Below are positions 25,663 through 42,726 of a DNA stretch of 64,000 nucleotides, piece after piece (the first letter of the stretch is position 1; every line of letters begins with the position of its first letter). The DNA is from Pelagomonas calceolata (taxonomy: Eukaryota > Sar > Pelagophyceae > Pelagomonadales > Pelagomonadaceae). A program made the position numbers and the translations under genes. The stretch covers positions 620,001 to 684,000 of the forward strand of contig CAKKNE010000001.1 of NCBI GenBank assembly GCA_918797485.1, read 5' to 3'. Under the pieces are notes generated by a model. The model made no database searches, had not been told where the DNA came from, and saw only the letters and a program-made list of their open reading frames with translations.

Positions 25663-26508
25663 ATGGGCGCCTGCTCCTCAAAAAGCGCCGTCAAGAAAGC
25701 GCCGAGCGACGACTCGTCGACGCCTGTGTGCATAAATCAAAATTTCACGGCGCCTTCGTGCTGAATCGTCGCGTAGACATCCACGCCATCGACGTGAAGC
25801 CTGCTCGATAGCGTGCGGTGCCTGTTCTGTTCCTCACGTGCGCTCGACGGAGTCAGCACGACGGCCGCATGAGCACCCGACTTGAGCACTGATTGATTTG
25901 CGCACAGGTCGACGGACCGTGAAAGCCTCTTCACCGCGGTGGAAACGGACAACACCCACCAAATCGCGAAACTCTTGAAGCGCGGCATCGACGTCGACGC
26001 GCGGGATGAAAATGAGTACACGGCGCTGCTCCTCGCCGCGGAGACGGGCGCCACGAAATCCGTCGGGACGCTCCTAAAGGCCGGCGCGGACCGCGACGCG
26101 CGCGACAGCTTCGGGCGGAGCGCCGTCTACGCCGCGGCCGTCGGCGGCAAGGACGCGGCCGTCGCGAAACTGCTCGAGGCCGGCGCGTCACCGAGGAACG
26201 CGGACCGCGACGGCCGCGGCCCCTTCTGGGCCGCCTGCGCGACGCGCGACACCAAAATTGCGGCGCGCCTGTTGCAGGCGGGCGCGGACGTCGACGAGCA
26301 GGACAACAACGGCGTCACGGCGCTGAGGTACGCCGTCGCCCACGGCAACGCCGACGTCGCGGAGTTCCTGCGCGCGCACGGCGCGGCGGAAGTCGACGGC
26401 GGACGGTTGTCCATGTCTCCTGCTGTGGGCGAGGAGGTCCCCGAGACGTTCACGAACCCGTCGCCGCGGAGCGCCGGCGAGGCGTCGGCCGGCGCCGCCT
26501 CGCTGTAG
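25663..26508 (+). CDS. Ankyrin-repeat protein with N-myristoylation-type start
   Basis: Exons 25663-25715 and 25908-26508. The first exon gives MGACSSKSAVKKAPSDDS, a typical N-myristoylation plus palmitoylation start (Gly2, Cys4, Ser6). Splicing with the GT at 25716 gives DDS-STDRESLFTAVE; a donor at 25728 is also in frame and would add four residues. About five ankyrin repeats follow, for example EYTALLLAAETGATKSVGTL, RSAVYAAAVGGKDAAVAKLL, and VTALRYAVAHGNADVAEFLR. A Ser/Pro-rich tail ends the protein. It is probably a membrane-tethered adaptor; the partner is unknown. The single intron is a clear introner (see next entry). Confidence 0.82.
25724..25907. mobile_element. Introner with TIR and 8-bp target duplication (ankyrin gene)
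   Basis: The left flank GTCGACGC (25716-25723) and right flank GTCGACGG (from 25908) are a 7/8 duplication. The left end CTGTGTGCATAAATCAA and the right end TTGATTTGCGCACAG are inverted repeats. The interior holds CCACGCCATCGACG and a diverged partner CTCGATAGCGTG. The right-end CAG serves as acceptor; the GT opening the left duplication serves as donor. Confidence 0.8.
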
Positions 26509-26522
26509 TAATGCTATAATTT

Positions 26523-27791
26523 TTACTCACTCTTCACAAGATCCTTGTCGAACCACAGGTTCCAGGGCAGGTCGCGATATCGCATAACAACGACATCGTG
26601 AAGCAGGCTGTCGAGCGCCACGAGGACGAACTCGTGCTGCTTTGCGGTCTTTCGCCACGCCGGTGTCACGGAAGAAAGAGCGACTTCCGACACCGCGACC
26701 AGGGTTGAGATGGTCCCCGCGATGGCGTCGCGACCGGGCGGCGCGGAGTGTGTGATGATGCTCCGTATCGTGTCAATTTTCTCCTGCGCGAGAACACCCC
26801 CAAGACGCTCCATGTCCAGGGCCCGATCCATGTGAACGCGCCGCGCCGCCCAGAGCGGCGCCACGAGCCGCCTACACCGTGTCGTCGCCGTCGCGAAGGC
26901 CACTTGATCGCGCCACGTCCAATACGGCAACAGGTGCTTGCGCTGGACGTCGTCCGGAACGCGCCTAAAGTTCTCAAACGCGCACGCCCGCTTCGTCCAA
27001 ATTATGAGTGCGGACCGCGCGCCGCGCGTCAACTCTCTGGCGCCGTGCTGGACTCCGCCGCCGTGGATCACTAGGGCGCCGCGGCGCGGCGTCACCTTCA
27101 AGGCCGGAACCTCGATCGCGTATCGATTTATTATGAACGTGAAGCCGTAGAGGAGTTGCGGGTAGCCCGCGAGGAGCGCGGAGACGCTTCTAATAACTTT
27201 GGGCGTGCCGATCTGCGCGGTCTTATAGGACTTCATGATACGCAGGAACTCATTATAGATCTCGGGCTCGTCGCGGGACTCGGCCTTGACCTGGTCGAGG
27301 TAGCGGAGGGCGTCTTCTTTATCTGCCTCCTTTCTCAATTGCGGCGCACTCGGAAACACCCGGACCATCAATTCTCCGCCCTCATACTCGTCATCCGGCG
27401 TGAGCGGGCAATTGATCGTGACATCACTGCCTGGGTCAACATGCTCGGCGTGCGACGAGCACTCGTGAGCGGCATCATAAGATATGACAAAGGCCTTGTG
27501 CCGCTCCAGACGGCACCACCGCGGCACGAACGCGCTGTCCTTCATCGCTGTCAGAATGCGGGCGACGCCATTGTCCACGAGCGCCCGCCCGGCGGCGTCG
27601 AAGTCCTCGTAGGCGACGTGGCGCGTGTCGTCGTCGTCGCGGCAGCGTCGGACCGCCTCCCGCAGACCGGCATACCAAGCGCTGTCCTCGTCCGTGTCGA
27701 GCCATTCGCCCGCGTCGACTCTGCAGGTGCCGCTGATGAGCTTGCGGAAGCGCATGATCCAAGCTCTCCTGAAATCGATCACAATTTCCAA
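26523..27791 (-). CDS. Prolyl-4-hydroxylase-like Fe(II)/2-oxoglutarate oxygenase
   Basis: A 422-residue intronless protein. The N-terminal half carries a P4H-type core: FVISYDAAHECSSHAEHVDP with an H-x-D pair, TINCPLTPDDEYEGGELMV, then IINRYAIEV and GALVIHGGGVQHGARELT, where the distal His and a following basic residue complete the metal and 2-oxoglutarate site. The C-terminal 150 residues are unlike known P4H domains (WTWRDQVAFATATTRCRR and later) and have no recognised family. There is no signal peptide, so a cytosolic or nuclear substrate is more likely than collagen-like wall protein. It ends 14 bp from the stop of the convergent ankyrin gene. Confidence 0.72.
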   Translation of the reverse strand: MEIVIDFRRAWIMRFRKLISGTCRVDAGEWLDTDEDSAWYAGLREAVRRCRDDDDTRHVAYEDFDAAGRALVDNGVARILTAMKDSAFVPRWCRLERHKAFVISYDAAHECSSHAEHVDPGSDVTINCPLTPDDEYEGGELMVRVFPSAPQLRKEADKEDALRYLDQVKAESRDEPEIYNEFLRIMKSYKTAQIGTPKVIRSVSALLAGYPQLLYGFTFIINRYAIEVPALKVTPRRGALVIHGGGVQHGARELTRGARSALIIWTKRACAFENFRRVPDDVQRKHLLPYWTWRDQVAFATATTRCRRLVAPLWAARRVHMDRALDMERLGGVLAQEKIDTIRSIITHSAPPGRDAIAGTISTLVAVSEVALSSVTPAWRKTAKQHEFVLVALDSLLHDVVVMRYRDLPWNLWFDKDLVKSE

Positions 27792-27887
27792 AAACTGTTC
27801 AGCGAGCTAAACGCATCGGTCGAATCTCACGTGAATTGCCCAGCAAGCTGCAGACGAGCGTCTTGGGCTTCGCGCGCGCGAGCGGAA

Positions 27888-27911
27888 GCTAGCGGCATGT
27901 AAGACACTAGC
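27888..27911. promoter_or_regulatory. Palindromic CTAG-arm motif, copy 7
   Basis: GCTAG and CTAGC arms with centre CGGCATGTAAGACA, between the divergent oxygenase (97 bp) and aminotransferase (172 bp). It is the reverse orientation of copy 3. Confidence 0.6.
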
Positions 27912-28082
27912 ACGAGGGCAGGCAACCTCCTTTCCGGCGCAGATCTGCAATACAAGGGCCATAGGGATACAGCTGTCACGTGAAAGCAGCTGTCCGAGAG
28001 CCCAGCTAGGCCGTCGCGCGAGTAATTGCTTCATCACTCGTGCCCCAACATCTCAAAGTAGACGACCTGCCAAAAAACAGCC

Positions 28083-29684
28083 ATGCGCCGCCGCGCCGGC
28101 ACGAACGCAAGACGCGCGGTGGCCGAGTGGCGCCTCCGCTGCGGCCGCCGCGCACCTCAGCCATTCGGCAAGCAAACGCGCCTGCAAAATGCGACTGCGC
28201 TATCAAAACGCCGCGCCGCACTAAAAACAGACGTGGTAGAAAGAGCCTTACGGCGCCCAACACCACAACACATTGAGGCCGACCGAGCCAAGCTCTGGCA
28301 CCCCTACGCCGCGACGCCCGGCGCGCCGTGCCTGCCCGTGCGTTCAGCAGAGGGCGTCCGCCTCGAGCTCGAGGACGGGACTCAATTAATAGACGGCATG
28401 TCGAGCTGGTGGGCCGCCGTGCACGGTTATAGGGTCCCCGAGCTCGACCGCGCCGTCGCGGACCAGCTCTCAAGCGTGGCGCACGTGATGTTCGGGGGGC
28501 TCACTCACCGGTTGATCTCGGCGTTTTGAAGTGTTGCGGTGCCTTCACGCCATCGACGCGACTCGTGTCCATCTCACGATGACGTGGGTGGTTTCTTTTT
28601 CGATTTTGAGCCAATTCATTCGTGTCGAGACCGCGATTCGCGCAGGCCGGCCGTCGCGCTCGGCGAGCTGCTGGTGAGGTGCACGCCGCCTGGTTTGGAT
28701 CGTGTGTTCCTGGCGGATTCCGGATCTGTAGCGGTAGAAGTTGCACTGAAGATGGCCGCGCAGTATTGGAGGGGACGCGGGCGGCCGGAGAAATGTAGAT
28801 TTGTGGCGTTAAGGGGCGGCTACCACGGCGACACGCTGGGCGCCATGAGCGTGAGCGACCCGGCGACGGGGCGCCACGAGGCCTTTGCGACGATCCCGCG
28901 TCATCATTTCGTGGCGCGGCCGCCGAGCCGCGGCGCGGACTTTACGAAAGCGATTGAAAGTCTCGCGGAAGTACTGGCAAGAGATGACGTCGCGGCCTTA
29001 ATACTGGAGCCGCTCGTGCAAGGTGCCGGCGGCATGCACTTTTATGATCCCGGTTATTTACAACAAGCACGTCAATTGTGCGACGACCACGACGTCCTAC
29101 TCATCTGCGACGAGATCGCGACGGGGTTTGGGCGGACGGGCCACTGGTTCGCCTGCGACGAGGCCCGCATCGCGCCGGACATTTTGTGCGTCGGCAAAGC
29201 CTTGACGGGCGGCTACGTGACCATGGGCGCGACGCTCGCGACGGAAAAGGTGGCATCCCACGTCTGCGCGGCGCCGCCCGGCTCCCAAGATGATGCATTA
29301 CCGCTCATGCACGGTCCCACGTTCATGGGCAACCCCCTCGCGTGTGCTGTTGCGCTGGCGTCAGTGTCGAAGCTCTTAAAGGGCGGCTGGTGGCGGCGCC
29401 GCGTGCGCGCCATCGAGGGGCAATTGTGCGCGGGGCTGAACCCCTGCGTTGGGCTTGATACGGTGGCTGACGTGCGCGTGAAAGGAGCCATCGGCGTCGT
29501 GGAAATGAAAGCACCCTTGGACGCGGCGAAGGTCGCGGCCGCGTGCCCCGCGCTGGGCGTCTGGCTCCGGCCCTTCGGGACGCGGCTCTACACGATGCCG
29601 CCCTTCGCCTGCACCGCGCGGGACGTCGCGCGGATCTGCGAGGCCGTGTGTTTTGTTGCGGCGAACGCGGGGGACTACCACTAA
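28083..29684 (+). CDS. bioA: Adenosylmethionine-8-amino-7-oxononanoate aminotransferase (biotin synthesis)
   Basis: Exons 28083-28510 and 28646-29684; the intron 28511-28645 splices HVMFGGLTHR-PAVALGELLV in frame. The N-terminus is Arg/Ala rich without acidic residues (residues 1-50), fitting a mitochondrial presequence. The body is a class III PLP transaminase: LIDGMSSWWAAVHGYRVPEL, DSGSVAVEVALKMA, LRGGYHGDTLGAMS, LICDEIATGFGRTGHWFAC, and the PLP lysine in CVGKALTGGYVTMG. GMSSWW and the HGP(T/P)FMGNP pair are typical of BioA rather than other family members. It converts KAPA to DAPA in biotin synthesis. A BioD domain is not fused here, unlike in some plants and fungi. Confidence 0.9.
28511..28645. 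repeat. Introner-like intron of the BioA gene (family B)
   Basis: It contains CACGCCATCGACGCGACTCG and a GTGGGTGGTTTCTTTTTCGA box followed by TTTTGAGCC. The same box occurs, in either orientation, in the DNAJC7-like and dynein introns. No clear TIR or target duplication remains. Confidence 0.6.
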
Positions 29685-29761
29685 TTTATTTGTTTGTTAC
29701 TCACCAGTACATACGTCGCGCGTTGTCGGGCGCGCGAGGGGGCGAACCCCCCCGCGCGCCG

Positions 29762-30637
29762 TCACGAGTGCACGACGTCGGCGAGCTCGAGGACGAGGGT
29801 GTGGCTCCCGTTTCCGAGGGACGCGCCGTGGCGCCCCTGCAGTACCCTCCCGTGCGTGCCGTCCCAGCGGCGGCGGACGCGGGCCTCGCCGTCGACGACG
29901 AGGCGCGACGGCACGCGGCCCACGCCCAGGTCGCGGATCGCCCTTTCATCCAACCAATAGTGCTCGAGGTGGGGCCAGCGCTTCGCCGCCGCCACGGCCC
30001 GGGCCGGCGACGGGTCGACGCAGCAGGCCGCGCACCTTATGGCCTTCTCGGCGAAGCCGTACGCTTGCGACACGCTCGCATCCTCCAACATCGCGGCGAG
30101 CGCGTCGAGCTCGTCGAGCGTCTCGCCCGCCTTGACCCGCGATCACGCGTCGACGGCGACGAGCGGCGGGATCCGCCGCGGGCCGTCCAGCGCGTGGAAT
30201 TCCAGTACCAAACACTGCGTCGGCGGGCGCAGCAGCTCCCAGAGCCTCGTCGTGCCGCCCTGGCCGACGGGGCCCCGCAGCGTCGCGTTCGGGAGCTGCG
30301 CGCTCTTGTCTCGCAGGGGCTTTGGCGGTGGCCGCGGCTTGTTCGTCGCGTCCTCCGGCGTCCCGGTCGGTGGAGGCGGCGGTTCTGGCACCGCCTGCAG
30401 CGCATCTGGCGCGGCCGTCTCGGCCGGCGGCGTCGGCGGCGGCGGCTCGACGGGAGGCGGCGGCGATTGCGAGGGCGGTGGCGCGTCGGTAGGCGGCGGA
30501 GGTGATTGCGGCTCAGCCAGCGGCGGCGGCGCTGAAAGGGCTGCCTCCTCGCGCTTCTGCCGCTGGCGCCGCGCCACCTTCTTCCACGCGCGCAGGCACA
30601 GGGCGACGTCGATGACGAGGCGCAGCTCCTTGGCCAT
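29762..30637 (-). CDS. Thioredoxin-fold-like protein with one in-frame TGA
   Basis: Minus-strand frame from MAKELRLVIDVALCLRAWKK (start 30637), through a Pro-rich linker, to a C-terminal domain. One TGA at 30143-30145 interrupts the otherwise open frame: PPLVAVDA, stop, SRVKAGETLDELDALAAM. Downstream are IRCAACCVDPSPARAV and a thioredoxin-like ending VGRVPSRLVVDGEARV with a probable cis-proline. The frame is the same on both sides, so no frameshift is needed, and a canonical intron would have to be under 35 bp. Explanations are selenocysteine (TGA), a nonsense mutation or assembly error (TGG Trp is one base away), or tiny-intron splicing. No SECIS-like element was evident in the 60 bp before the next gene. 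The start at 30754 is possible but lies close to the promoter motif. Confidence 0.5.
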
Positions 30638-30781
30638 GGCACTACCTACACTGGCAGTCAAGCATGGATGCGGCAGCGTGCTTAGTCCATGGGGCCTGGC
30701 CCAGGTTCTACTCAAGTTGGGGCAGCCAACGACTCCCGCTCTGTCGGCCAGCAACGGATTCGAGTTGGATTATTTTTTCAG

Positions 30782-30801
30782 GCTAGCGTGACATACTAGG
30801 C
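30782..30801. promoter_or_regulatory. Palindromic CTAG-arm motif, copy 8
   Basis: GCTAG and CTAGG arms with centre CGTGACATA, between the divergent TGA-containing gene (145 bp) and the 31016 gene (215 bp). Confidence 0.45.
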
Positions 30802-31015
30802 ATCTCGATGCACGCCTTTTTTTGGCGCATCCAAGCGCGTTGAGGCTCGTCGCGACGGCTAACTTTGTTCTGTGCTTGTTTTCTCGATCTCTGCGCGCTG
30901 TGCTCCGCCTTCGTCGTGAGGCCGTCGCCTAACAGCCAACAAAAAGCTCTTGGATCTTTGGGCTGCAGCACGCGCGCGGAAAGGACGCGCGCGGCTGGAC
31001 AAAAGGAACAAAGCC

Positions 31016-31876
31016 ATGCGGCGCTCTCTAGCCGTGCTGGCGCTCTGCGTCGTCGAAGCGCTCCGACCGTCTCCACCATTGACGCGCCGCCAAAGCACGA
31101 ACAGCCCGGACCTAGAAGAAGAAGCCCGCATCCGCGCGAAGCTCGAGGACCACGCGGCCCAGCAGCGCGGCCGCCACGCGAAGAAAAAACTAAGCCCGGC
31201 AGCCCAGCGCCGCCGGGCGAAGCGCGGCGCGTCCTTCGAGGCGGCCCAAGATATTGGAAGAGAACTCGCCGAGCAATTGAGGGATAAGAAAACGTTGGAT
31301 AATGAGGCAAGGGAGCTGCTCCAGGATTTAGTATCGACGACGTCGGGCGCGCGCGGCTGGTTCGTGTCCCTGCTCACGGACGACGACCTCGCGCAACTGT
31401 TCGTGCCACCGATCGATGATGCTTTGTTAGAACCCATCGCCGCGCGGCCCGAGCCGAACTTGCGGTTATGTGTGATGAACGTGGCCATGAGCGCGGCGAC
31501 GGCGGTGGCGCACGAGCGCGACGGGCATCGGGACCTGGCCGCGGCGTCGCGGGCGACGTCGTTACGATCGGCGGCTTTGTGTACCGCGCTTTTGGAAAGA
31601 GACATGATGGCGGGTCTGGCCGAGGCGCTGCGCGCGTTGTACGAGGCCGCGGCGCCGCGCGACGACGACTTGGGGGAGCTGGGCGAGATTCTCGGGCTGT
31701 CGTCGGACGCGGCGCCGTCTCACGTGGACGAGGACTGGGCCGCGTTCCTCGACAAGTGGCGCTACGGCCCGGACCAGCGCGCGGCGATCCGGCGGACGTT
31801 GTATGAGAACTGGGCGCCGATCGTCCGGAGGGAGGTCTCCTCGGTCGCCGCCGCCCCTGAGGACGAGCCTGAGTAA
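31016..31876 (+). CDS. Conserved hypothetical protein, probably plastid targeted
   Basis: A 286-residue protein with a signal-type leader (MRRSLAVLALCVVEALRP, Ala-Leu context) and a charged, Lys/Arg-rich helix (residues 35-75). A compact helical region follows: SGARGWFVSLLTDDDLAQLF, VPPIDDALLEPIAARPEPNL, RLCVMNVAMSAATAVAHERD. The last part seems familiar from other algal genomes with complex plastids, but no named family is recognised. Function is unknown. The start at 31016 is chosen for the leader; the frame is open upstream to 30950. Confidence 0.68.
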   Translation: MRRSLAVLALCVVEALRPSPPLTRRQSTNSPDLEEEARIRAKLEDHAAQQRGRHAKKKLSPAAQRRRAKRGASFEAAQDIGRELAEQLRDKKTLDNEARELLQDLVSTTSGARGWFVSLLTDDDLAQLFVPPIDDALLEPIAARPEPNLRLCVMNVAMSAATAVAHERDGHRDLAAASRATSLRSAALCTALLERDMMAGLAEALRALYEAAAPRDDDLGELGEILGLSSDAAPSHVDEDWAAFLDKWRYGPDQRAAIRRTLYENWAPIVRREVSSVAAAPEDEPE

Positions 31877-31948
31877 CAACTACTCCATAGATCGAGGACG
31901 GAGGACACGCAATGGCCCACATCACAGCGCTATGGCATGGAGTACAGA

Positions 31949-33517
31949 CTACTTGATATTATCCCCCTCCGGCGGCGCGCCGCGGGGTGGGTTTCTGAAA
32001 CTACTGTCATCCAGCGTGTCCGAGCCCGGGAAGTGGAGGACGCCGCCCCGCGGCGGTTTTTTGTCAGGAATCTCCAGTTCTCGGCGCCCGAAGGTGATGG
32101 CCGCAAGAGCGCCGTCTTCGCGGGCCACGTCCGCGTCGAGCTCGGTCCTCCCGGGCCGCCAGACCGTCGGCGCCGCCGCCGGGCGCGCGATGTCCGGAGA
32201 GGCCCAGACCGACTTTTTCGTAGGAGCCGCCTCCTCCTCCACGGGATCTACTTCATCAGAAGCGAAGAAGGGGTTCCTTTCCCCGACGTCGCCGAAGGCC
32301 CAGTCGAGGTCGTGCGACACTTCGGGCGGCGTCTCATTCACAAAACCTTGGATCCGCTGGACGTGCGCGTGCCACCTGACAGCTCTTCGCGTCAATGCCG
32401 ACGCCTCGTCATCCCTCCCTTCCTCCAGGTATCTTTCAGCTAGATAGAGCGCGGCCTCGGGCTCGAACAGAACTAAATCACGCTGCTTTGCGATCTCATA
32501 CGCTTGTTTTTCGTCGCCGTGCTCTAAATACAAATTCATGCGTTCCAGTTGGATGCGCCGCCAGCAGTCGTCAAAATCGTTTTTTACAGAATGCTTCTCG
32601 ATGGCTTGTAAAGCGCGATCCAAATATGAGTGAATAATCTGCAACGCGCGGGCCTTCCGTCTTTTTCTGTATTGGGTCCCCGGCGCCGCGATGGCGGCAG
32701 CGAGCTCCTTCTGAGCGACTGCAACCATCGGATCCACAAAAGCCGCGGGCGCCGGCGCCGGCGCCCGTCCCAATCCAAGCCGCGACAGGGCCTTCGCGGC
32801 CGACGCGAAGCTTGGTCTTTTCTTCCGCGGCGCGTCTCCCAATGACACGGGGCGTTCGTCCAAGGATTCGTCCTTCCTGGAACCGAAGCTCCCGAAGGTC
32901 CGCATCTTCGTCCTCACGGAACTCAGTCTTTCCCTCATACTTGGCGGTCGTTCTTCGTCCAGCCACGCCGCCGCCGGCCAGTTTTGCGCCTCGTCGCGCC
33001 GCATGCGACAGAGCGAGACCTGGGCCATGCGAAATAGCGCGTCGGGGTCCTCGCGGAAGGGCGCCTTGCGATCGTACTGGTCCGTGAGCGGCTCGAGTAA
33101 TGCTGCCGCGCCCTCATAATCGTTCTGCGCGAGGCATAGCAAAGCTTCGTTGTAGAGTCGCCACTTCTCGGCCGTCCGCTTGGTCGTGTGCGGTCTACAA
33201 GATTTGACCCACTTGGCGTCGCCGGGTATCGAGGGCGCGGGCGCCTCCGCGGTGCTGGGGCGCCTCCGCGTCGGCGCGATCGGCTCCGGCTCGGGGCTCT
33301 GCGGCCTCGAGGGCGCGGCGTCGTCCGGACCCGGCGCGGGGCTCCGGACGCCAGTCAAGTGATCTGATGAAGGCGGCCGGTCCGCGGTGGGCGGCCGCCG
33401 CCAGACGTCCGCGCCGCCCGCCTCTTGGTATACGTCCAGGATCGCCTCGTCGTCGCGGAGCGCCGCGGCGATCGCCGCGTCGTCGGCGACGTAGGCGTCG
33501 CGGTCCTCGGCCTGCAT
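31949..33517 (-). CDS. TPR-like hypothetical protein
   Basis: 522 residues from the Met at 33517 (MQAEDRDAYVADD); an ATG at 33622 would add 35 residues of low-complexity sequence. A disordered Pro/Ser/Arg region occupies residues 50-115. Helical repeats follow: RLYNEALLCLAQNDYEGAAA, then DALFRMAQVSLCRMRRDEAQ, DDCWRRIQLERMNLYLEHGD, and EAALYLAERYLEEGRDDEAS. These are degenerate TPRs. The C-terminal 120 residues are acidic and disordered. There is no catalytic motif; a scaffold role is inferred. Confidence 0.66.
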   Translation of the reverse strand: MQAEDRDAYVADDAAIAAALRDDEAILDVYQEAGGADVWRRPPTADRPPSSDHLTGVRSPAPGPDDAAPSRPQSPEPEPIAPTRRRPSTAEAPAPSIPGDAKWVKSCRPHTTKRTAEKWRLYNEALLCLAQNDYEGAAALLEPLTDQYDRKAPFREDPDALFRMAQVSLCRMRRDEAQNWPAAAWLDEERPPSMRERLSSVRTKMRTFGSFGSRKDESLDERPVSLGDAPRKKRPSFASAAKALSRLGLGRAPAPAPAAFVDPMVAVAQKELAAAIAAPGTQYRKRRKARALQIIHSYLDRALQAIEKHSVKNDFDDCWRRIQLERMNLYLEHGDEKQAYEIAKQRDLVLFEPEAALYLAERYLEEGRDDEASALTRRAVRWHAHVQRIQGFVNETPPEVSHDLDWAFGDVGERNPFFASDEVDPVEEEAAPTKKSVWASPDIARPAAAPTVWRPGRTELDADVAREDGALAAITFGRRELEIPDKKPPRGGVLHFPGSDTLDDSSFRNPPRGAPPEGDNIK

Positions 33518-33733
33518 CTTGGTTCGCCGCCGTCGAGCAGGCGTCACGGAGGTCGCGCCGACGGCGTGTCGGCGTGGGGCTGCCAAACAAGCCCAAACAG
33601 GTGGGGGAGTGTGGTCACTCACCTCGCCATGCTGCGGCGCATAGATCGGGCAGCCGGGAGGACGTTTGCAGCGTAATGTGCGCCACGCCTGGGCCCCAGC
33701 CGGATTGTGGACTGCCCACGCCGCTGTGCATGT

Positions 33734-33753
33734 GCTAGCGTCGACACTCTAGG
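33734..33753. promoter_or_regulatory. Palindromic CTAG-arm motif, copy 9
   Basis: GCTAG and CTAGG arms with centre CGTCGACACT, between the divergent TPR-like (217 bp) and EF-hand (140 bp) genes. Confidence 0.48.
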
Positions 33754-33892
33754 AAACCGGCAAACGTTGGGCAGCCTCCGGCAGCCTGTAGCGGCTGCCC
33801 TCCCACACAAGAAGTCGGTCTCCGTGCCTCAAGGGCTCGTCGCGGCCAGGCGCCTATCGTCGTCACGAAGGCAGCCCGAAGACATCAGCGTC

Positions 33893-36592
33893 ATGGCCAG
33901 CACCGCCCACACGGTAGAGAACGCCTGCCGCGTCGTCCGCGCGGACTTGGACGCGCGGCAGGAGGATTTGAGGACCTTGAGGGAAAGATGTGAAAGGGCC
34001 TTCGCCTACTGCGACAACAACGGCCGCGCCGACGCGGAGGCTTTGGAAATCTGGTGCGGCGCCGTGGGCGTCACTTTGGATTCGACGCTCGCGGCCAAGG
34101 CGCGCATCGCACCTATTATAGAGGCGGCCGCTTCCCTAAGAGTATTGCGGGGCCAGCCGCAGGAGCGGGGCGTGACCTTTGATGAATTAGCCGAGTTGGT
34201 ATTGGTGAAGGAGGCGCGCGACGTCGAGCCTCTCGTCCAGCGCGCCAGGGCGTTCTTCGCCGAGAAATGTGACGACGGCCAGGCCGTCATAGCGTGGTTC
34301 CAGGCCAAGGGCTGCGGCGACGAAGTCACGAGGACGGACGCGAGCGCTTGCTTACTAGATCTCGAAGAGCTCCCCATGTCGAGCCTGGGCGCTTTGATTC
34401 TCGCGGAGCGCCTCGATATCAATAGAGATGGCATCATCGATGAGAAGGACGCCCTGGCTTGGCTCGTCGTGCCGAGGAAACACGAGGAGTTGAGGGAGCA
34501 ATTGCAGCGCTGGTGCGTCGCGAGTCACCAATCCCAACCAAAGGTGTGCTTCGACGCCCTGGACCGGAGGGGCCGGGGATTGGCCTCGAGAAGGGACCTC
34601 GAGAAGGTTTTATGTGCGAAGAAATTCTTCGAGCGGGCTTTTACGAGAACAGAGCTCGACGTCGTCCTCACGCAGCTAGACGCGGACGGCAGCGGCTGCG
34701 TCGATGTAAACGAGTTCACGACGTGGCTGTCGCAGGGGCGGAGCGACTTCGTGGACGAAGAAGCAGTTACGGGTGGCGAGGAAGATTCTACCTCATTGTT
34801 CCAGGCCGCGGCGCAGCAATTGCGGGCGGCGCTGCTGGAACGGTGTGGACTCACAGGAGGCATTGGGTCGGCGGACGACTACGGCAAGGCCCAGGAGGCG
34901 CTGGCAGATGAATTCCGGAAGGTCGACACAGATCAATCGGGTGTTGTAGATGAGAGCGAGTTTGGGGCGTTAATCGCGTCGATCGTCGACGTCGTCGATG
35001 CGGATCAATTGAGCGTGGGCGAGACGGACGTCATGGTCTCGGTCGAGGCTGACGAGAGGACGTGGGAAGGCTTGGGATGCGAGCTCCTCGAGTCGTGCGA
35101 AGGGTTACGGACGCTGTCGCTGAAGAGTAGTCGAGTGGAGGGGTTGAGAGCTGGTGACATCATAAAAAGTATCTGTGGCCAGTCGGTGAACGAGATGGCC
35201 GCGACTTTAGATTCGGAATTTGTGGAGAACAATCCTCTGGATGCATTAACGAAGCGTGCACAGTTCGCTCTACAGACCGGTCCTCTGGTCTCGCTGGTCG
35301 TGTCGAGGAAGTCTCTCTACAAACTCGCGAAGAGGCACGTCGCGGCGTTGTGGCGGGCCGTCGACGCGGACGCGTCCGGTTCTGTTGAAAGGGAGGAGGT
35401 CGAGCGCTTCGTTTTAGATGACGCGCCGGAGGCCGGGGAGCACGAGTTCGCTGTGGTGTTGGAAGCGTTAAGAGAGGCGGCTCGGAAGACGTTCGATCCC
35501 TCTGATACCTTGGCGCCGGTGGCCCAGGCCTTCCGGAGTGTGGCGCGGTTGACCGAGAGACCCTTTGTTGGAGACAGCCCGCACTCATTACCGACGCACG
35601 TGTTGGGCGTCTGGGCGCGGCAGGTATCGAATTGTTCTAGAAGGCAGGGCACTTTATTTCAAGAAAGATTAGATCGCAACTGTGATGGTGTGGTCAGTAG
35701 GTCGGAGTTCGGGGCGTGGCTCTATCCTACGAGACCAATAGACAAGCTCAAGGAGCTGATCTGCGACGTTGTTGATAGGCACTTCCAGGGCAAAATGGCC
35801 AAGCTGTGGGCTCGAATGCTACCACAAAACCCCAACGGGTCCATACAACGAGAACACCTCCAATCTAAGTTGAGACAGGCTGGTTTAGGATATGTGGGGC
35901 CGGGCGAGGTCGATTGCATCCTAGAAGCGACCGGGGATAAAAAGTCGCTGCGGTTTTTTAGGTTGTGCGCCTTTTGCGGGCGGGAGCCCGAGCGGCTGCC
36001 GCCGCCGTCTCCCGTCAAAAAGAGGAAGAAGCGCGTCTCAATGCCGCGCCCGGCGACGGCGCCGCCTCGGATACAACGCAAGGCTGTAGTCAAACCGCCG
36101 CCGCCGCCACCGGATGACAATGAAGACGCCAGCGACGCCGACGTCGACGAGCAAATGGACAAGGTCGCTTTGACGGCGTTACAAGCGAGATTTCGCGCCG
36201 CGCCGTGCAGGGGCACCCTCGACGCGTTGCGAAGTCGAGACGCGGCCGTGCTCGAGCTGGAGGAGGCCTACGCGCGCGAGGCCGCGCTTAAAGTGGACGT
36301 GGCCCACGCGAAGGCGCTGGTGCGCAAGGCCGTCGCCGCGGCGCTGCGAAAGGCCGAGGCCGAGCGCGTTGACGTTGAGAAGGCGCGAGACGAGGAAAAC
36401 AAAAAACTGGCCCTCGAGAACAAGAAGCTCCTTCAACAAGTCGAGAAGCTGAAAACGCAGCTCCGGGCTGCGGTGGTTGCGAAGCAGCACGCGGTCCACG
36501 AGGCCGAGCTCAAGGTGACGGACCACTTCCGGAAGAAGCTGGCGGCGGCGGCGAAGAATGAGAAGAGGGACCCGCTTAAGACAGTATCATGA
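33893..36592 (+). CDS. Large multi-EF-hand protein with PDZ-like segment and C-terminal coiled coil
   Basis: 899 residues from the Met at 33893 (MASTAHTVENACRVV); the upstream extension to 33707 is poor. At least five EF-hand loops are visible: DINRDGIIDEKD, DADGSGCVDVNE, DTDQSGVVDESE, DADASGSVEREE, and DRNCDGVVSRSE. Most keep acidic residues at positions 1, 3 or 5, and 12. A segment around GLRTLSLKSSRVEGLRAGDI and IKSICGQSVNEM has the look of a PDZ fold. The final 150 residues are a charged coiled coil (ENKKLALENKKLLQQVEKL). The architecture resembles EFCAB6-type or flagellar calcium-binding proteins; a calcium-sensing cytoskeletal role is inferred. The frame is intronless. Confidence 0.82.
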   Translation: MASTAHTVENACRVVRADLDARQEDLRTLRERCERAFAYCDNNGRADAEALEIWCGAVGVTLDSTLAAKARIAPIIEAAASLRVLRGQPQERGVTFDELAELVLVKEARDVEPLVQRARAFFAEKCDDGQAVIAWFQAKGCGDEVTRTDASACLLDLEELPMSSLGALILAERLDINRDGIIDEKDALAWLVVPRKHEELREQLQRWCVASHQSQPKVCFDALDRRGRGLASRRDLEKVLCAKKFFERAFTRTELDVVLTQLDADGSGCVDVNEFTTWLSQGRSDFVDEEAVTGGEEDSTSLFQAAAQQLRAALLERCGLTGGIGSADDYGKAQEALADEFRKVDTDQSGVVDESEFGALIASIVDVVDADQLSVGETDVMVSVEADERTWEGLGCELLESCEGLRTLSLKSSRVEGLRAGDIIKSICGQSVNEMAATLDSEFVENNPLDALTKRAQFALQTGPLVSLVVSRKSLYKLAKRHVAALWRAVDADASGSVEREEVERFVLDDAPEAGEHEFAVVLEALREAARKTFDPSDTLAPVAQAFRSVARLTERPFVGDSPHSLPTHVLGVWARQVSNCSRRQGTLFQERLDRNCDGVVSRSEFGAWLYPTRPIDKLKELICDVVDRHFQGKMAKLWARMLPQNPNGSIQREHLQSKLRQAGLGYVGPGEVDCILEATGDKKSLRFFRLCAFCGREPERLPPPSPVKKRKKRVSMPRPATAPPRIQRKAVVKPPPPPPDDNEDASDADVDEQMDKVALTALQARFRAAPCRGTLDALRSRDAAVLELEEAYAREAALKVDVAHAKALVRKAVAAALRKAEAERVDVEKARDEENKKLALENKKLLQQVEKLKTQLRAAVVAKQHAVHEAELKVTDHFRKKLAAAAKNEKRDPLKTVS

Positions 36593-36916
36593 GGTTAGCC
36601 ACGCGGTGCCCCAGTCCTGTTGCGTTTAGACCACGCCTCTCGAGCCGCTGACGCGTACTTTGACGCATCTAGGTTGCGACGTAAATTCGGGTTTACTCCA
36701 TTTCTCGGAGCGGAGGGGTCGTGCCAGTTGTCTACTCGACAGCCTGAGCTCCCGAGCCGAGGATGGCACCTCCGAAAAAAGAAAATGGCCGGCGCCATAC
36801 CGTCGAACTTGGGGGACGAAGTCGAGGGGTCCGACCCGCTAAGACAGATCATAAATAAATAAATAAATAAATAAATTAAGGTCATAAAGTTAGGCACACG
36901 GCATACAAATATCGGG
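36593..36916. other. Gap between convergent genes with an (AAAT)n repeat
   Basis: AAATAAATAAAT repeats occupy about 36851-36876. No gene is supported. Confidence 0.6.
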
Positions 36917-37339
36917 TCACGAGTCGAGGTTGCGCGGCGAAGGGTCCGTCGAGAGGCGCCCCCGCGGCGCCTTCCGCGGCGGCGGTGGTGGCTCCTTCGG
37001 CGTTTCTGGGGGTGGCGGCGGCGGCCCGCGCCGCTGGATGCGCTCCAGGTGCAAATTGCGCAGCACCGAGTTGATCTGCCGGAAGTCGGGGTCGGCCTCG
37101 TCGTCGTCCGGTCCTATTGATCGTCGCGGCGTGAGCGCGCGCGTCTCCATGGAAGGCGACGGCGACGGCGACGAGGGCGACTCCTCCTCCATCGACGAGA
37201 CCCGTAACCTCTTCACGCCGCGGTCGAGGCGCGCCTCGAGCGTCTCGGAGCGCGAGCGCTTGCCCGTCGCCGTCGAGCCGGTCTCGCTGAGGTCCTCGTC
37301 GTCGGCGTCGGGCAGGGGCGGGGGGTACTGGCGGTCCAT
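36917..37339 (-). CDS. Small acidic/basic hypothetical protein
   Basis: 140 residues from the Met at 37339 (MDRQYPPPLPDADDEDLSE). Low-complexity and probably disordered: an acidic start, a basic KRSRSETLEARLDRGVKRLR, a Ser/Pro run, and a short predicted helix FRQINSVLRNLHLERIQRR that is the only candidate conserved motif. A Pro-rich end follows. The basic cluster could be a nuclear localisation signal. No family is recognised. Confidence 0.55.
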   Translation of the reverse strand: MDRQYPPPLPDADDEDLSETGSTATGKRSRSETLEARLDRGVKRLRVSSMEEESPSSPSPSPSMETRALTPRRSIGPDDDEADPDFRQINSVLRNLHLERIQRRGPPPPPPETPKEPPPPPRKAPRGRLSTDPSPRNLDS

Positions 37340-37602
37340 TGTGTCGCTCTGGTTCGTTTGCGTGTGTGCGCAGTCGTGCGCTGCTACGCTGGTAGGGCTG
37401 GCGGCGACGCCGCGGCGGCTGGCGCGGCGCTGACCCAAGATGACTCTTGCAGTGGGATTGGTCCCTGCGACGCGTGGGCGCGCAGCGCTCGAGCCGGCCG
37501 GACAGCTGGTGCGCTGGAAGCCGTAAGGACGAGAAACGTTCCCCGCGCAATCGCTGCGGCTCCAGACGCTGTAATTTTGGCAATCAAGCCGAACCTGGAC
37601 TT

Positions 37603-37625
37603 GCTAGTGTCTTACAGCCGCTAGC
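37603..37625. promoter_or_regulatory. Palindromic CTAG-arm motif, copy 10
   Basis: GCTAG and CTAGC arms with centre TGTCTTACAGCCG, between the divergent small hypothetical (264 bp) and bystin (330 bp) genes. Confidence 0.6.
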
Positions 37626-37954
37626 TCGGTAGTCACGGCCGGATTTCTACCGGCGACGCGTTCTAATCGGTGCTCTACGGCGTCTCGTGGCGCCAGCGTT
37701 GTCCGGACGCCAAAGAGCAGCATTCAGTGATAAATTGCCATTGCGAGCCTCGTACGCGACGCAAACTTATCACTGGACAGCGCACGTTGCGGCATAGCAC
37801 CGCCGGACATCCCGGCACGCGCCCTGCAAGCAAGCTCGGTTGAAAAAGGCTCTCCTGGCGTGAACAACGCGTTGCTGTGCAGAGCAGTGCAAAACGCATA
37901 AATACTCGTAGAGTTACAAACGCGTGCCGTGAACGAGCGCAGCGCATCGCAGCC

Positions 37955-39349
37955 ATGCCCAAGCAAAAGCGGGCCGACAAGCTCAAACACAAGGGCGACA
38001 AGCGCCGGAAGACGGACAACCTCGAGGTCGTTTTGAGGGAGGACCTAGCACAATCATCAGGAATCGTGCAGCCGAAGCCGCCGCGCGCGCCGAAGCAACG
38101 AAGTCGAGCGGACTCAGACGACGAGCTCGACCCTGAACAACAAAAAAAGATCGAGACCATGGCGCGGGCCCAGGCCTCGGATGAATTACAAAGAGAGGTG
38201 CAAATCATGAGAGACGACTCGTCCAGTGACGACGAAAGTGAAGACGATTTAGGACTAGACGACGACGGCGAGGATATAGATGGTCTAGATTTCGGCGCGG
38301 AGGCGCTGTCGCCCTCACAAAGTGCATTAGTAGACTCCTTCCTGAACCCGGGCGGGCGGACGCGAACGCTGGCGGACCTGATCATGGAGAAGATCGCCGA
38401 GAAGGAGGCCGCGCAGCACGGCGACGACGATGAGGACGATGATGATCAATTGCCAGACAAAGTAGTAGAAGCTTATACCGGCATGGTGCCCTTGCTGCGG
38501 CGATATAGGTGTGGCAAATTACCGAAGGCCTTCAAGGTCATCCCGGCCTTAGAGAGGTGGGAGGAGATCCTCTGGATGACCCGTCCAGATGAATGGAGCC
38601 CGCACTGCGTGCACGCCGCGACTCGGGTCTTCGCTTCGAATTTAGACCCGAAACGGGCTCGTACCTTCTACGGGGACGTGTTGCTGGAAAGGTGTCGGGA
38701 CGACATCCGAGAGCACCGTCGTCTCAACTACCACTTGTATCAGGCGCTGCACCGCGCGTTGTTCAAACCGGCGCCCTGGTTCAAAGGGGTTTTGCTACCT
38801 TTAGTGAAGAGTGGCGACTGCACTTTAAGGGAGGCGTTGGTGTTTGGGTCGGTACTGGCCAAGGCCAGTGTCCCCCAGGCGCACGCGGCCGTGGTCATAA
38901 TGAAATTGGCGGAGCTGCCCTACTCGGGCGCGCAGTCGGTGTTTCTGATAGTGTTATTGAATAAGAAGTACGCGCTGCCCGTGCGCGTCGTGAGCGCCGT
39001 CGCGCGCTGTGTGGAAACCAAATTTCGGGCGCCCCACGCCATCGACGCGATGTTGTCTCCGTAGCTGCATCTGCTCGATGGCGTGGACCTAACTCACTGG
39101 TTGATTACCACACAGGTCGCGAAGGCGTTCCTGGCGCACGCCGACGACTCGTCCGAGCGGCCGGTGTTGTGGCACCAATCTCTACTAGTGTTCGTGCAGA
39201 GATATAGGGGCGACCTGTCGGACGACCTCTCGGGCCGGATCCTGAAATTGCTCAAAACGCACCGCCACCACACGATCACGCACGACATCCGGCGGGAGTT
39301 GACGGCGGGCCACCGGCAGCGGGCGGCCGCGGCGGCGGCGGCGCGGTAG
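37955..39349 (+). CDS. BYSL: Bystin / ENP1 ribosome biogenesis factor
   Basis: Exons 37955-38998 and 39116-39349. The N-terminus is Lys-rich (MPKQKRADKLKHKGDKRRK) then acidic, as in bystins. The helical core reads PKAFKVIPALERWEEILWMT, DEWSPHCVHAATRVFASNLD, and LNYHLYQALHRALFKPAPWF. The second exon supplies LPVLWHQ-like VLWHQSLLVFVQRYRGDLS and ends in a poly-Ala stretch. Splicing of the introner gives VVSA-VAKAFLAHADD in frame. Bystin is a nuclear/nucleolar factor of 40S subunit maturation. The match covers the whole protein. The ATG at 37955 removes an upstream extension without family similarity. Confidence 0.9.
39007..39115. mobile_element. Introner in bystin with TIR and target duplication
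   Basis: Flanks GTCGCGCG (38999-39006) and GTCGCGAA (from 39116) match at 6 of 8 bases. The left end CTGTGTGGAAACCAA and right end TTGATTACCACACAG are inverted repeats with two mismatches. The interior stem CCACGCCATCGA...TCGATGGCGTGG is perfect. The intron is 38999-39115. Confidence 0.78.
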
Positions 39350-39434
39350 GCGTCGTCTAAGATTGACCAACTCCTCCATTGCGTCACATACGCGGCGGCG
39401 ACGGCGTCGAGGGCTCTTGCGTTTAGGAAAGCCT

Positions 39435-39458
39435 GCTAGCGGCCCGTAAGGCACTAGC
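39435..39458. promoter_or_regulatory. Palindromic CTAG-arm motif, copy 11
   Basis: GCTAG and CTAGC arms with centre CGGCCCGTAAGGCA, 131 bp upstream of the PI3-kinase ATG. The upstream neighbour (bystin) ends here. Confidence 0.58.
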
Positions 39459-39588
39459 AAAAGCAAGCCTGGTGAGCCTTGCTGCGGACGAGGAACGGCA
39501 AAGAGATGCCAGGCTGACGCTGCGCCTTCCTTTCGCGTGCAAAATGATGCGCGCGACGGCTGCCCCATCGCTCTGATGGTCCGAGCAA

Positions 39589-42500
39589 ATGTGGCAGCCT
39601 AGCACCCCGGCGCCGCCGCCGCGCGAGCGCGCCGAGAATGTGCGCGCGATGAGGAATGCGCGCGTGGAGAGGCTCGGAACTGACGGGGCCGTCGACGCCT
39701 CGACGACGACGTTCTTACGGTCCATTCCGGCTTTTCAAGGGTTCGGCGAGAATCAACTAAGGAGAATCCGGGCCGCGTTGCGGCGGCGGGCCTACGCGGC
39801 GCACGAGATTTTAATAGAGCAGGGCGCCGCGATCGGGAGCGACGCGTTCTTCGTCCTCGCGTCGGGCCGCGTGCGCGTCTTCGTTGATGGGAGGCAGGTA
39901 GCTGTATTATCTGCTGGCGACTACGTGGGTGAGCGCGCCCTGGTCCTGCGGGAGCCGCGAGCCTCGACCTGCGTCGCCGACGCGGAGGGCTGCGCCTGCC
40001 TCGTGCTCGACGCGGAGGCCTTCGAGGACGCCGTGCTCGCCCGGGGAAGCGAGGACCTGTCTCCTTCGAAGCGGACGCGGCGCCGGTCGTCGTGGGTCCG
40101 TTCGTTTAATGCTTATGAGCACGACGCCCGGGACGAGGGCGCGGGCCGCCTTGGGGCCTTCGCGGCGGACTACGCGGCGCTATTGTCGGAAACGAGCGGT
40201 GACGGGGATTTCTCGTCCGCGCTTAATGGTGACGCGCTGTCTCCCGTCAAAGCCGCGGAGCTGCGTCTTTTACTGCTCGCGGAGCTGACGCCGGAGCTGT
40301 CCGCGGAGGAAGCCGTCGATCGTATCATCGGCCTCGCGGAGCGCGTCTTTCCTGGGACCGTGGCGGTCCGCGACCCCGTCGCCGGCGAGGCGCATCGAAT
40401 CGTCGTCGCGGATTCCGCGCTCGCGGCGCCCGTCACGAGCCGAGGCCGGCTCCTCGCGATCTTGGAGCTGCGGGGCGGATCCATCCCGCCGAGCTGGGTG
40501 CCGGCCGCGACCATCTTCGCCGAGGCCCTCGCCGCGCCGTTGGCTTCTTCCCGGACCGCGCGCCGCGATAGCGTACACGCCGACGACCCGCCGCCACCAC
40601 CACCACCACCCGCCGCCGGGCTCGAAAAACTCATCGCCGCGCACGTGCTCCACCGGCCTTCAAAGGAAGAGAAGCGGCTCCTCTGGGCCGCGCGCGAGGC
40701 GCTCGTAGGTGAACCACGCGCGCTGCCCAAGGTCTTGCTCGCCGTCGACTGGAGCGTGAAGAGTCAGGTCCGCGAAGCTTACCGTTTGCTAGGAAAGTGG
40801 GCACCGCTGCCGCCCCTGCACGCGCTGCAGCTCTTGAGTAAGCGCTTCCCGGACGCGAAGGTCCGCGCCTTCGCGGTGCGCTGCCTCGAGCCTTTAGGTG
40901 ACGCGGACCTTGCGGCCGTGACGCTGCAATTGGTCCAGGTCGTCAAGGCCGACCGGTGCCACGACACGGCCCTGAACCGCTTCTTATTGAGGAGGGCGTT
41001 GCGGAGCCCGCTCGTCTGCGGCCACGCCTTGTACTGGGCCCTCGCGGCGGAGATCGATAAAGAAACCCACGCGTGCCGCGTCCTGCACGACGTCTATGCT
41101 CGGAGCTGCGGCGCGTACCGCGCGAAGCTCGGGCACCAGGTCTTGCTGGTGAAGCGCCTCGCGGCGATCTCGGCCAAACTAGCCTCCGTCAAGTCGAACC
41201 GCGATGATAAATTGCGGGTGTTGCTTTCCGAAGTCGTCCTCGCGCCGACGTTCCAGCTGCCGCTCTCGCCCTACATGGTCTGTGCCGGCTTGAATATTGA
41301 GAAGTGCCGCGTCCTGGGGTCCGCGAAGAGTCCGCTCTGGCTCGAATTTACGAATGCGGTCGTCGGCGCGGCGCCGCACGTCGTCATCTTCAAAACCGGC
41401 GACGACCTGCGCCAGGCAGTGCATAAATCAAATTGTCGCGGGACATCCGTCGCTGTTGAATCATGGCTTCCACGCCATCGACGCGACGTCAACACGAAGG
41501 CGTGGCGGTGTGGTGCGCGCCCGACTCACAGATTGATTTGCGCACAGGCGCCAAGACCAGCTCACCTTGCAACTCTTGCGGTCGATGGACGCGCTCTGGC
41601 GCGCGCGGGGCCTGGACCTGCGCATGTCGCCTTCGGTGTGGAAATCAAAATTTTACGGCGCGTTCGCTGAATCATCGCGTCGTCCTCCACGCCATCAACG
41701 CGACGCCTGCTCGATGGCGTGGCGATGCCGGTTCCTCACCGCTCGACCGAGCCAGGACGGCCGCGCACCCGACGCACTGGTTGATTCCCACACAGGTCGC
41801 CTTACGGCTGCGTCGCGACGGCTAGGCACCAGGGCTTCATCGAGGTCGTGCCGAACGCCTCCACTTTGTCCGAGATCACGCGCGACGAGCGCTTCCGGCA
41901 TGGAGCCCCCCTGCTCAAGTCGGTGCGGAACAGTGCACAAATCAAATTCCGAACGCCCGCTCACTGGTTGATTTGCGCACAGGTGCGGAAGCTCGCTGCG
42001 GCAAAGGAGGCCTACTACGGATCCGATGCATTATTGAAGTGGTTGGCGCGGGCGGCGCGCGAGCGAGCTCCCGCTGTAAGCTTCGGGCCGCCCGGCTCCT
42101 TCCGGCACGCGGGCCTCGCGCCACCGACGACGCTGCCGCCGCCGCCGAAGTGGCGCACCGCGCGGAGAAGGGAAGAAGTTAATCCTCTCCAAGAAGGCTC
42201 GCGGGTGTATAGCGTGCTGGATCACTTCGTGCGCTCACTCGCGGGGTACAGCGTCGCGACGCGCGTGCTCGGTGTGGGCGACCGGCATAACGATAACATC
42301 ATGGTAGCCACGGATGGGCGTTATTTTCACGTGGACTTCGGGCATTTTCTAGGACATTTCAAGTCCAAGTTCGGTGTGAAGCGCGAGTCGGCTTCGTTTG
42401 TGCTGACGCCCCATATGGAGACAGTGTTGGGCGGGCGCGGCGCGGGCTACCGCTTCCGGCGCTTCGAAGAGTTGTGCGTCGAGGCGTTTGTCGTCCTTCG

Positions 42501-42726
42501 GGACGAGGCAGACCACCTCATGATTCTATTGATGCTCATGGTCGACGCTGGCATCCCCGAGCTATCTAATTTGGAGGACGTGGCGTGGGTCCACCGCGCC
42601 CTGATTCTCAACGAGCGCGACAACGCCAAGGCTGCCGCGAAGTTCCTGGCGCTCGTCGACGCGGCGCTCGACGACCGACGCACGCGAAGCATGCACGCGA
42701 TCCACAGCCTGGTGCATACGTCCTAG
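39589..42726 (+). CDS. Class I-like PI3-kinase with N-terminal cyclic-nucleotide-binding domain
   Basis: Exons 39589-41408, 41548-41625, 41796-41922, 41983-42726. Residues 40-150 form a cyclic-nucleotide-binding domain with a phosphate-binding cassette (GERALVLREPRASTCVA; Glu115, Arg125). A GAF-like segment (AAPVTSRGRLLAILELRGGS) lies near 280-300. A PI3K accessory helical domain runs from about 345 to 530. The kinase domain follows: VVIFKTGDDLRQ-DQLTLQLL across the first intron, SPYGCVATARHQGFIEVVPN, catalytic GVGDRHNDNIMV, and FHVDFGHFLGHFKSKFGVKR. The activation loop KSKFGVKRE resembles class I enzymes, which phosphorylate PI(4,5)P2, rather than Vps34. No C2, Ras-binding or adaptor-binding domain is seen. 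Control by cAMP or cGMP is an attractive inference. The first intron has a GC donor, required by the frame. Confidence 0.88.
41417..41547. mobile_element. Introner with GC donor (PI3-kinase intron 1)
   Basis: Flanks GCGCCAGG (41409-41416) and GCGCCAAG (from 41548) match at 7 of 8. Ends are CAGTGCATAAATCAA and TTGATTTGCGCACAG. Only a donor at the GC that opens the left duplication keeps the conserved DDLRQDQLT frame. The visible GT at the TIR would shift the frame. Confidence 0.8.
41634..41795. mobile_element. Introner with perfect 8-bp duplication (PI3-kinase intron 2)
   Basis: GTCGCCTT lies on both sides (41626-41633 and from 41796). Ends are CGGTGTGGAAATCAA and TTGATTCCCACACAG. The interior has CCACGCCATC and GATGGCGTGG stems. 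Splicing at the two GT/AG points restores RMSPYGCVA. Confidence 0.85.
41931..41982. mobile_element. Minimal 52-bp introner (PI3-kinase intron 3)
   Basis: A perfect duplication GTGCGGAA (41923-41930 and from 41983) flanks an element that is little more than its two ends: CAGTGCACAAATCAA and TTGATTTGCGCACAG with 22 bp between. The whole intron is 60 bp. The internal stem found in longer copies is missing. Confidence 0.85.

Follow-up and report, generated by a model that had tools for sequence, protein, structure and literature searches.

MITE-type introners of Pelagomonas calceolata: evidence for acceptors drawn from element ends and donors drawn from target-site duplications

We analysed a 64-kb stretch of the Pelagomonas calceolata genome (C1:620001-684000, referred to as the window), which contains six introns that are very probably copies of one non-autonomous, cut-and-paste introner family of the MITE type, with a full length of about 203 bp. 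The AG acceptor of these introns would come from the end of the element and the GY donor from the target-site duplication (TSD), with restoration of the old mRNA upon splicing. The sequence evidence consists of the TSDs, the inverted ends, a rule that the duplication begins with GY, restoration of the host reading frame, an orientation that depends on the availability of AG, and empty sites. The family is real and well supported at this level; it is of a known kind but new as a family, the Aureococcus family being compared by description only.

According to the mechanism we propose, a MITE-type element, about 203 bp at full length but with internal deletions in many copies, would insert with an 8-bp duplication of its target. 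Each element end, read outward, would act as a 3' splice end (TTGATTtccACACAG), so that an AG would be present at the downstream boundary in either orientation, provided that the downstream end has kept it. The upstream duplication copy would provide the donor with its two leading bases, for which GT or GC may suffice, and splicing would remove the element together with one duplication copy to restore the old mRNA. Movement would depend upon a transposase acting in trans, a hAT-type enzyme being the best guess.

Introners of the window and of the genome

Five introns with short inverted ends and 8-bp flanking duplications had been predicted in the window, and direct re-reading of their borders bore out all five (Table 1). 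In each of them the left duplication opens with the donor dinucleotide, and the right end closes with the acceptor AG. The original prediction also described the elements as intact, with 15-bp terminal inverted repeats. This holds for the ends but not for the interiors, since elements of 52-184 bp, compared to a full-length consensus of 203 bp, are internally deleted. The inverted ends are indeed short, but most pairs mismatch at 2-3 of 15 positions, and one left end, at 25724, measures 17 bp. The count of five also fell short by one, a sixth and decayed introner having been overlooked; we found it by a pattern scan. Right-end patterns with no more than 2 mismatches occur 15 times in the window, compared to 1.7 expected. 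The right end of subfamily 2 is present on introns 1, 3, and 5. The donor of intron 3 is GC, making this a GC-AG rather than a GT-AG intron. Retention of intron 2 would introduce an in-frame stop into the bystin gene. Introns 3 to 5 place three introners within 600 bp of a single gene (41409-41982), and a comparable cluster was observed in the sampled region L150.

Table 1. Predicted introner introns of the window, all on the + strand, with their target-site duplications and elements (window coordinates).
Intron	Coordinates	Length (nt)	TSD, left / right	TSD match	Element	Element features	Host gene
1	25716-25907	192	25716-25723 GTCGACGC / 25908-25915 GTCGACGG	7/8	25724-25907 (184 bp)	subfamily 2 right end TTGATTTGCGCACAG	small ankyrin-repeat-like gene, ATG at 25663
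2	38999-39115	117	38999-39006 GTCGCGCG / 39116-39123 GTCGCGAA	6/8	39007-39115 (109 bp)		bystin/Enp1 gene, CDS about 37955-39349
3	41409-41547	139	41409-41416 GCGCCAGG / 41548-41555 GCGCCAAG	7/8	41417-41547 (131 bp)	left end CAGTGCATAAATCAA	PI3-kinase-like gene, CDS about 39589-42726
4	41626-41795	170	41626-41633 / 41796-41803, GTCGCCTT on both sides	8/8	41634-41795 (162 bp)	subfamily 1; 95-97% identity to full-length consensus where aligned	same PI3-kinase-like gene
5	41923-41982	60	41923-41930 / 41983-41990, GTGCGGAA on both sides	8/8	41931-41982 (52 bp)	subfamily 2	same PI3-kinase-like gene
6 (decayed)	57343-57481	139	57343-57350 GTGCCGAT / 57482-57489 GTGCCCAA	6/8	57351-57481	ends CCGCGTGGAAATCAA ... 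TTGATGTCCGCGCAG	dynein heavy chain gene

The whole assembly (32,445,274 bases in 8 contigs) was searched for the right end, and flanking 8-bp duplications were looked for in sampled copies, along the lines of a check that had been proposed with the original prediction. Right ends numbered 1022 on one strand and 1019 on the other, compared to 2 on each for the reversed pattern; the family has roughly a thousand copies in the genome. Regions around the listed right ends on C1 were cut out and, together with the window, yielded a first set of 66 paired copies; addition of subfamily 2 loci from C2-C5 under uniform detection increased the sample to 107 distinct copies. The sample was thus chosen by one well-kept end and comes mostly from C1, with subfamily 2 drawn from C2-C5. 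The duplications are perfect in 54 of the 107 copies, with one mismatch in 39 and two in 14; two unrelated 8-mers at these spacings would agree with no more than two mismatches in 0.9% of cases by chance. Some copies (such as L043, L044, L068, L022, and L058) have perfect or near-perfect ends and poorly matching duplications, which could be due to gene conversion, rearrangement, or decay of the flanks.

The full-length consensus measures 203 bp and has 15-bp inverted ends (CTGTGTGGAAATCAA...TTGATTTCCACACAG). Most full-length copies of subfamily 1 differ from it by about 2-8%. Most copies of subfamily 2, characterized by the right end given for intron 1, differ by 18-29% and by this divergence look older than subfamily 1. 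Many similar introns are found at different positions of unrelated genes, as is typical of introners, and the elements have the inverted ends, TSD of constant length, short size, and lack of coding capacity that are typical of MITEs.

Host reading frames and empty sites

The duplication starts with GT or GC on one strand in 106 of the 107 copies, compared to about 31% expected; in the first set, all 66 duplications were splice-compatible against the same expectation. Among the sampled copies, only L101 (C2:2259560; left TCCCTCGA, right GTCCTCGA) lacks GY at the beginning of its left duplication, and it looks as if its donor had mutated. The gene strand of the sampled copies was taken from the TSD dinucleotides, with ties broken by open frames, rather than from annotation. 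For the frame test, the element and one duplication copy were removed and a 240-nt frame was checked in the 48 unambiguous copies of subfamily 1 and the 18 of subfamily 2. The frame was open at the exact junction in 96% and 100% of these copies, respectively, compared to 62-78% for shifts not divisible by 3.

Alignments of the spliced host proteins point in the same direction. The spliced bystin matched PDB entry 6g18_w (E 1e-93) with no gap at the junction, and the spliced PI3-kinase matched PI3K beta (4bfr_A; E 8e-68) with no gaps across the junctions. Excision of intron 3 restores GDDLRQDQL, and the restored GDDLRQDQLTLQLL aligns without gaps to the same PI3K beta structure.

We also searched the whole genome with the joined flanks of 13 sites in a duplicated region and of further sites on C1. 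A paralogue at C5:2113.7 kb lacks both introners of the sampled region L021; GTGGTGGC and GTACTGGC are present there once each, and identity around the two empty sites is 96/128 and 89/128. Another paralogue, on C2, lacks the introner of L065 and matches its TSD at 6 of 8 positions. Insertion would thus have created the intron at three sites with empty paralogous counterparts, two of which carry an exact single copy of the TSD. A fourth candidate, on C3, was too diverged to count. The published assembly of strain RCC100 comprises six nuclear contigs of 32.4 Mb and two organelle contigs, and its contigs 1 and 5 share a near-identical terminal duplication of 393 kb (PMC9481584), which our C1/C5 sequence matches fit. 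Between these duplicated ends no presence/absence differences were found at the sites checked, and hence no polymorphism.

Taken with the intact host frames and gapless alignments, the paralogous sites with one TSD copy uphold the original proposal that splicing restores the pre-insertion sequence, and together with the genome-wide copies and their matching TSDs they make DNA-transposon-type introners the best reading. From these sequence comparisons we infer that the predicted junctions would be used for splicing in vivo.

Acceptors, donors and rival explanations

Among subfamily 1 elements, the interior runs with the gene in 25 copies and against it in 19. Where an AG is available at both ends of the element, the copies divide 24:23 between the strands. 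Where it is available at one end only, the AG end is downstream in 28 of 28 copies, the strand here being taken from the TSD alone. These one-sided copies comprise 23 of subfamily 2, which offer no AG in reverse because their left end is usually CAGTG, and five others with a changed end, all five of which follow the rule. Subfamily 2 copies that have AG at both ends are split 3:3. An earlier and smaller tally of orientation gave a Fisher p of 1e-5. Of all the sequence features, this dependence of orientation upon AG argues most strongly that the acceptor comes from the end of the element. The motif TTGAT is kept in 83 of 89 acceptor-side ends and its A may serve as branch point, although the motif is about equally conserved on the donor side (76 of 89).

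The donors of the 89 gene-oriented copies are GT in 64 and GC in 25 (28% GC). Their flanks from -10 to -1 and from +3 to +8 are near background except for an A at +7; at position 7 of the duplication, A is found in 28 of 89 copies compared to 16.5% (p = 0.0004). Donor match to U1 was 3.5 of 11 in 78 introner copies, no better than the approximately 3.9 expected. An altered U1 was considered as the cause of these weak donors and rejected, as two U1 genes, both marginally below the Rfam gathering threshold, have the canonical 5' end AUACUUACCUG. In 74 of 75 copies, another GY that could serve as donor follows the predicted one in frame at a distance of 12 nt, so that alternative splicing with addition of four residues is possible from the sequence.

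The second GY bears upon a different reading, in which both splice sites belong to the element. The donor would then lie inside the upstream end (CTGT/GTGG or CAGT/GCAT), and each insertion would add to the mRNA 12 nt, made up of the 8-bp duplication and four bases. Bases 5-6 of the end are GT or GC in the 74 of 75 copies just mentioned, this mode is reported for one family of an Aureococcus species (PMC9860276), and the frame test is compatible with it because an addition of 12 nt stays in frame. The reading nonetheless leaves the GY start of nearly all duplications unexplained, and the bystin and PI3-kinase alignments contain no four-residue insertion at the junctions, including the one inside GDDLRQDQL; we therefore consider it very unlikely. 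Still less credible, to the point of being negligible, is that these are old, ordinary introns of a family that spread through reverse splicing or segmental exon duplication, with direct repeats due to chance or left over from the splice consensus. Chance can indeed produce direct repeats at the borders of an intron, and a shared splice consensus yields partial ones. The 8-bp repeats seen here, however, vary from copy to copy, are perfect in half of the sample, and stand directly outside the inverted ends, while the empty paralogues carry one TSD copy and the presence of interiors in both orientations would be unexpected from reverse splicing of an RNA.

Another concern is whether the GY rule mainly reflects the target preference of a transposase instead of a constraint by splicing. 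Some target preference does exist, as the A enriched at position 7 of the duplication is not needed for splicing, and 23 of the 28 one-sided copies belong to one subfamily, the ends of which a transposase might read asymmetrically. Preference of this kind would not account for the exact restoration of the frame; nor does it fit the five one-sided copies outside subfamily 2 that obey the rule, or the even split of the two-sided copies within it. We regard target preference as an improbable main cause, and retain the reading in which the duplication supplies the donor and the element end the acceptor.

Candidate movers and relation to known introners

No autonomous element or transposase with introner ends was found among the listed part of the approximately 2,000 ends, and no partner end turned up in four stretches, roughly 7-9 kb each, that were examined for long elements starting from unpaired ends. 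Two unusual ends on C1 (5508130/5512840), separated by 4.7 kb, proved to belong to separate introners. The genome does contain an intact-looking, single-copy hAT transposon on C4 (region C4:4499541-4503207, L010 3042-6708; element 4499880-4501643), with a transposase frame of more than 588 aa, perfect 14-bp ends CAGGGCAGCAGAAG, and the 8-bp duplication TTGCTCGC. It was rejected as the introner mobiliser, its ends being unrelated to those of the introners. Another open frame of hAT type (DUF659), 832 codons long and on the minus strand at C5:1222172-1222657, fell below the family cut-off; it is the best lead, as a possible mobiliser of the introners. The MULE transposase domain had no match in the genome; the P-element and KDZ/Zisupton domains had none either, in searches whose controls were likewise silent.

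A hAT-type mover is suggested by the 8-bp duplication, the short ends, and the A at +7. hAT elements have a target bias of nTnnnnAn, with which the A at position 7 of the introner duplications is consistent, and their ends start with (C/T)A..G. The left end CAGTG of many subfamily 2 copies resembles such ends, but the main introner end starts CTGTG and not CA. The inverted ends of hAT elements measure 10-25 bp (PMC3942097). MITEs of the hAT type share the 8-bp duplication and short inverted ends with the P. calceolata introners, although duplications of 8 bp also occur in other superfamilies.

Introner elements of Aureococcus anophagefferens were reportedly treated by Huff, Zilberman and Roy in 2016. 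This alga belongs to the same class and has introners of similar intron length, about 210 bp, as far as described by Guerin et al. 2022 (PMC9481584); our likening of the two families is by description. In P. calceolata itself, a peak of intron length at about 210 bp is tied to introners in the same study (PMC9481584). The introns of the window are almost certainly these published introns, given the match of the assembly in size and contig count, the match of the terminal duplication on C1 and C5, and the sum of element and duplication (203 + 8 = 211). Introners had therefore already been suspected in this species, which is not new territory (PMC9481584). The main text of that study covers only intron length and the comparison with Aureococcus (PMC9481584); we describe, beyond the length peak, the ends, duplications, subfamilies, GC donors, and orientation. 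The system in Fig. 2B of PMC9860276 resembles the present one in how element and duplication divide the work between them, in its inverted ends, and in an mRNA left unchanged after splicing; it differs in species, and the ends in P. calceolata are specific to the family.

The P. calceolata introners extend what is known of such systems by a test of orientation and by statistics on the donors. They provide a natural experiment on the conversion of a transposon into an intron, in which copies with one usable end lie one way only and copies with two lie both ways. Aureococcus and Micromonas pusilla are the two classic introner algae. GC-AG introns make up 39.6% in the former and 22.2% in the latter in the presence of a normal U1, an excess that Iwata and Gotoh termed an enigma (PMC3033335). 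Donors borne by duplications could account, in a way that can be tested, for the many GC-AG introns of introner-rich algae. We tentatively suggest, as a possibility with the odds against it, a combination of an end that works as a 3' splice module from either side, a spliceosome that needs only GY in the donor, a hAT-type mover with a target bias of T2/A7, and a single change from CAGTG to CTGTG that would have turned a hAT end into an acceptor. If this is true, GY-only donors would be supplied almost at random by the duplication, and the excess of GC-AG introns in introner-rich algae would be explained.
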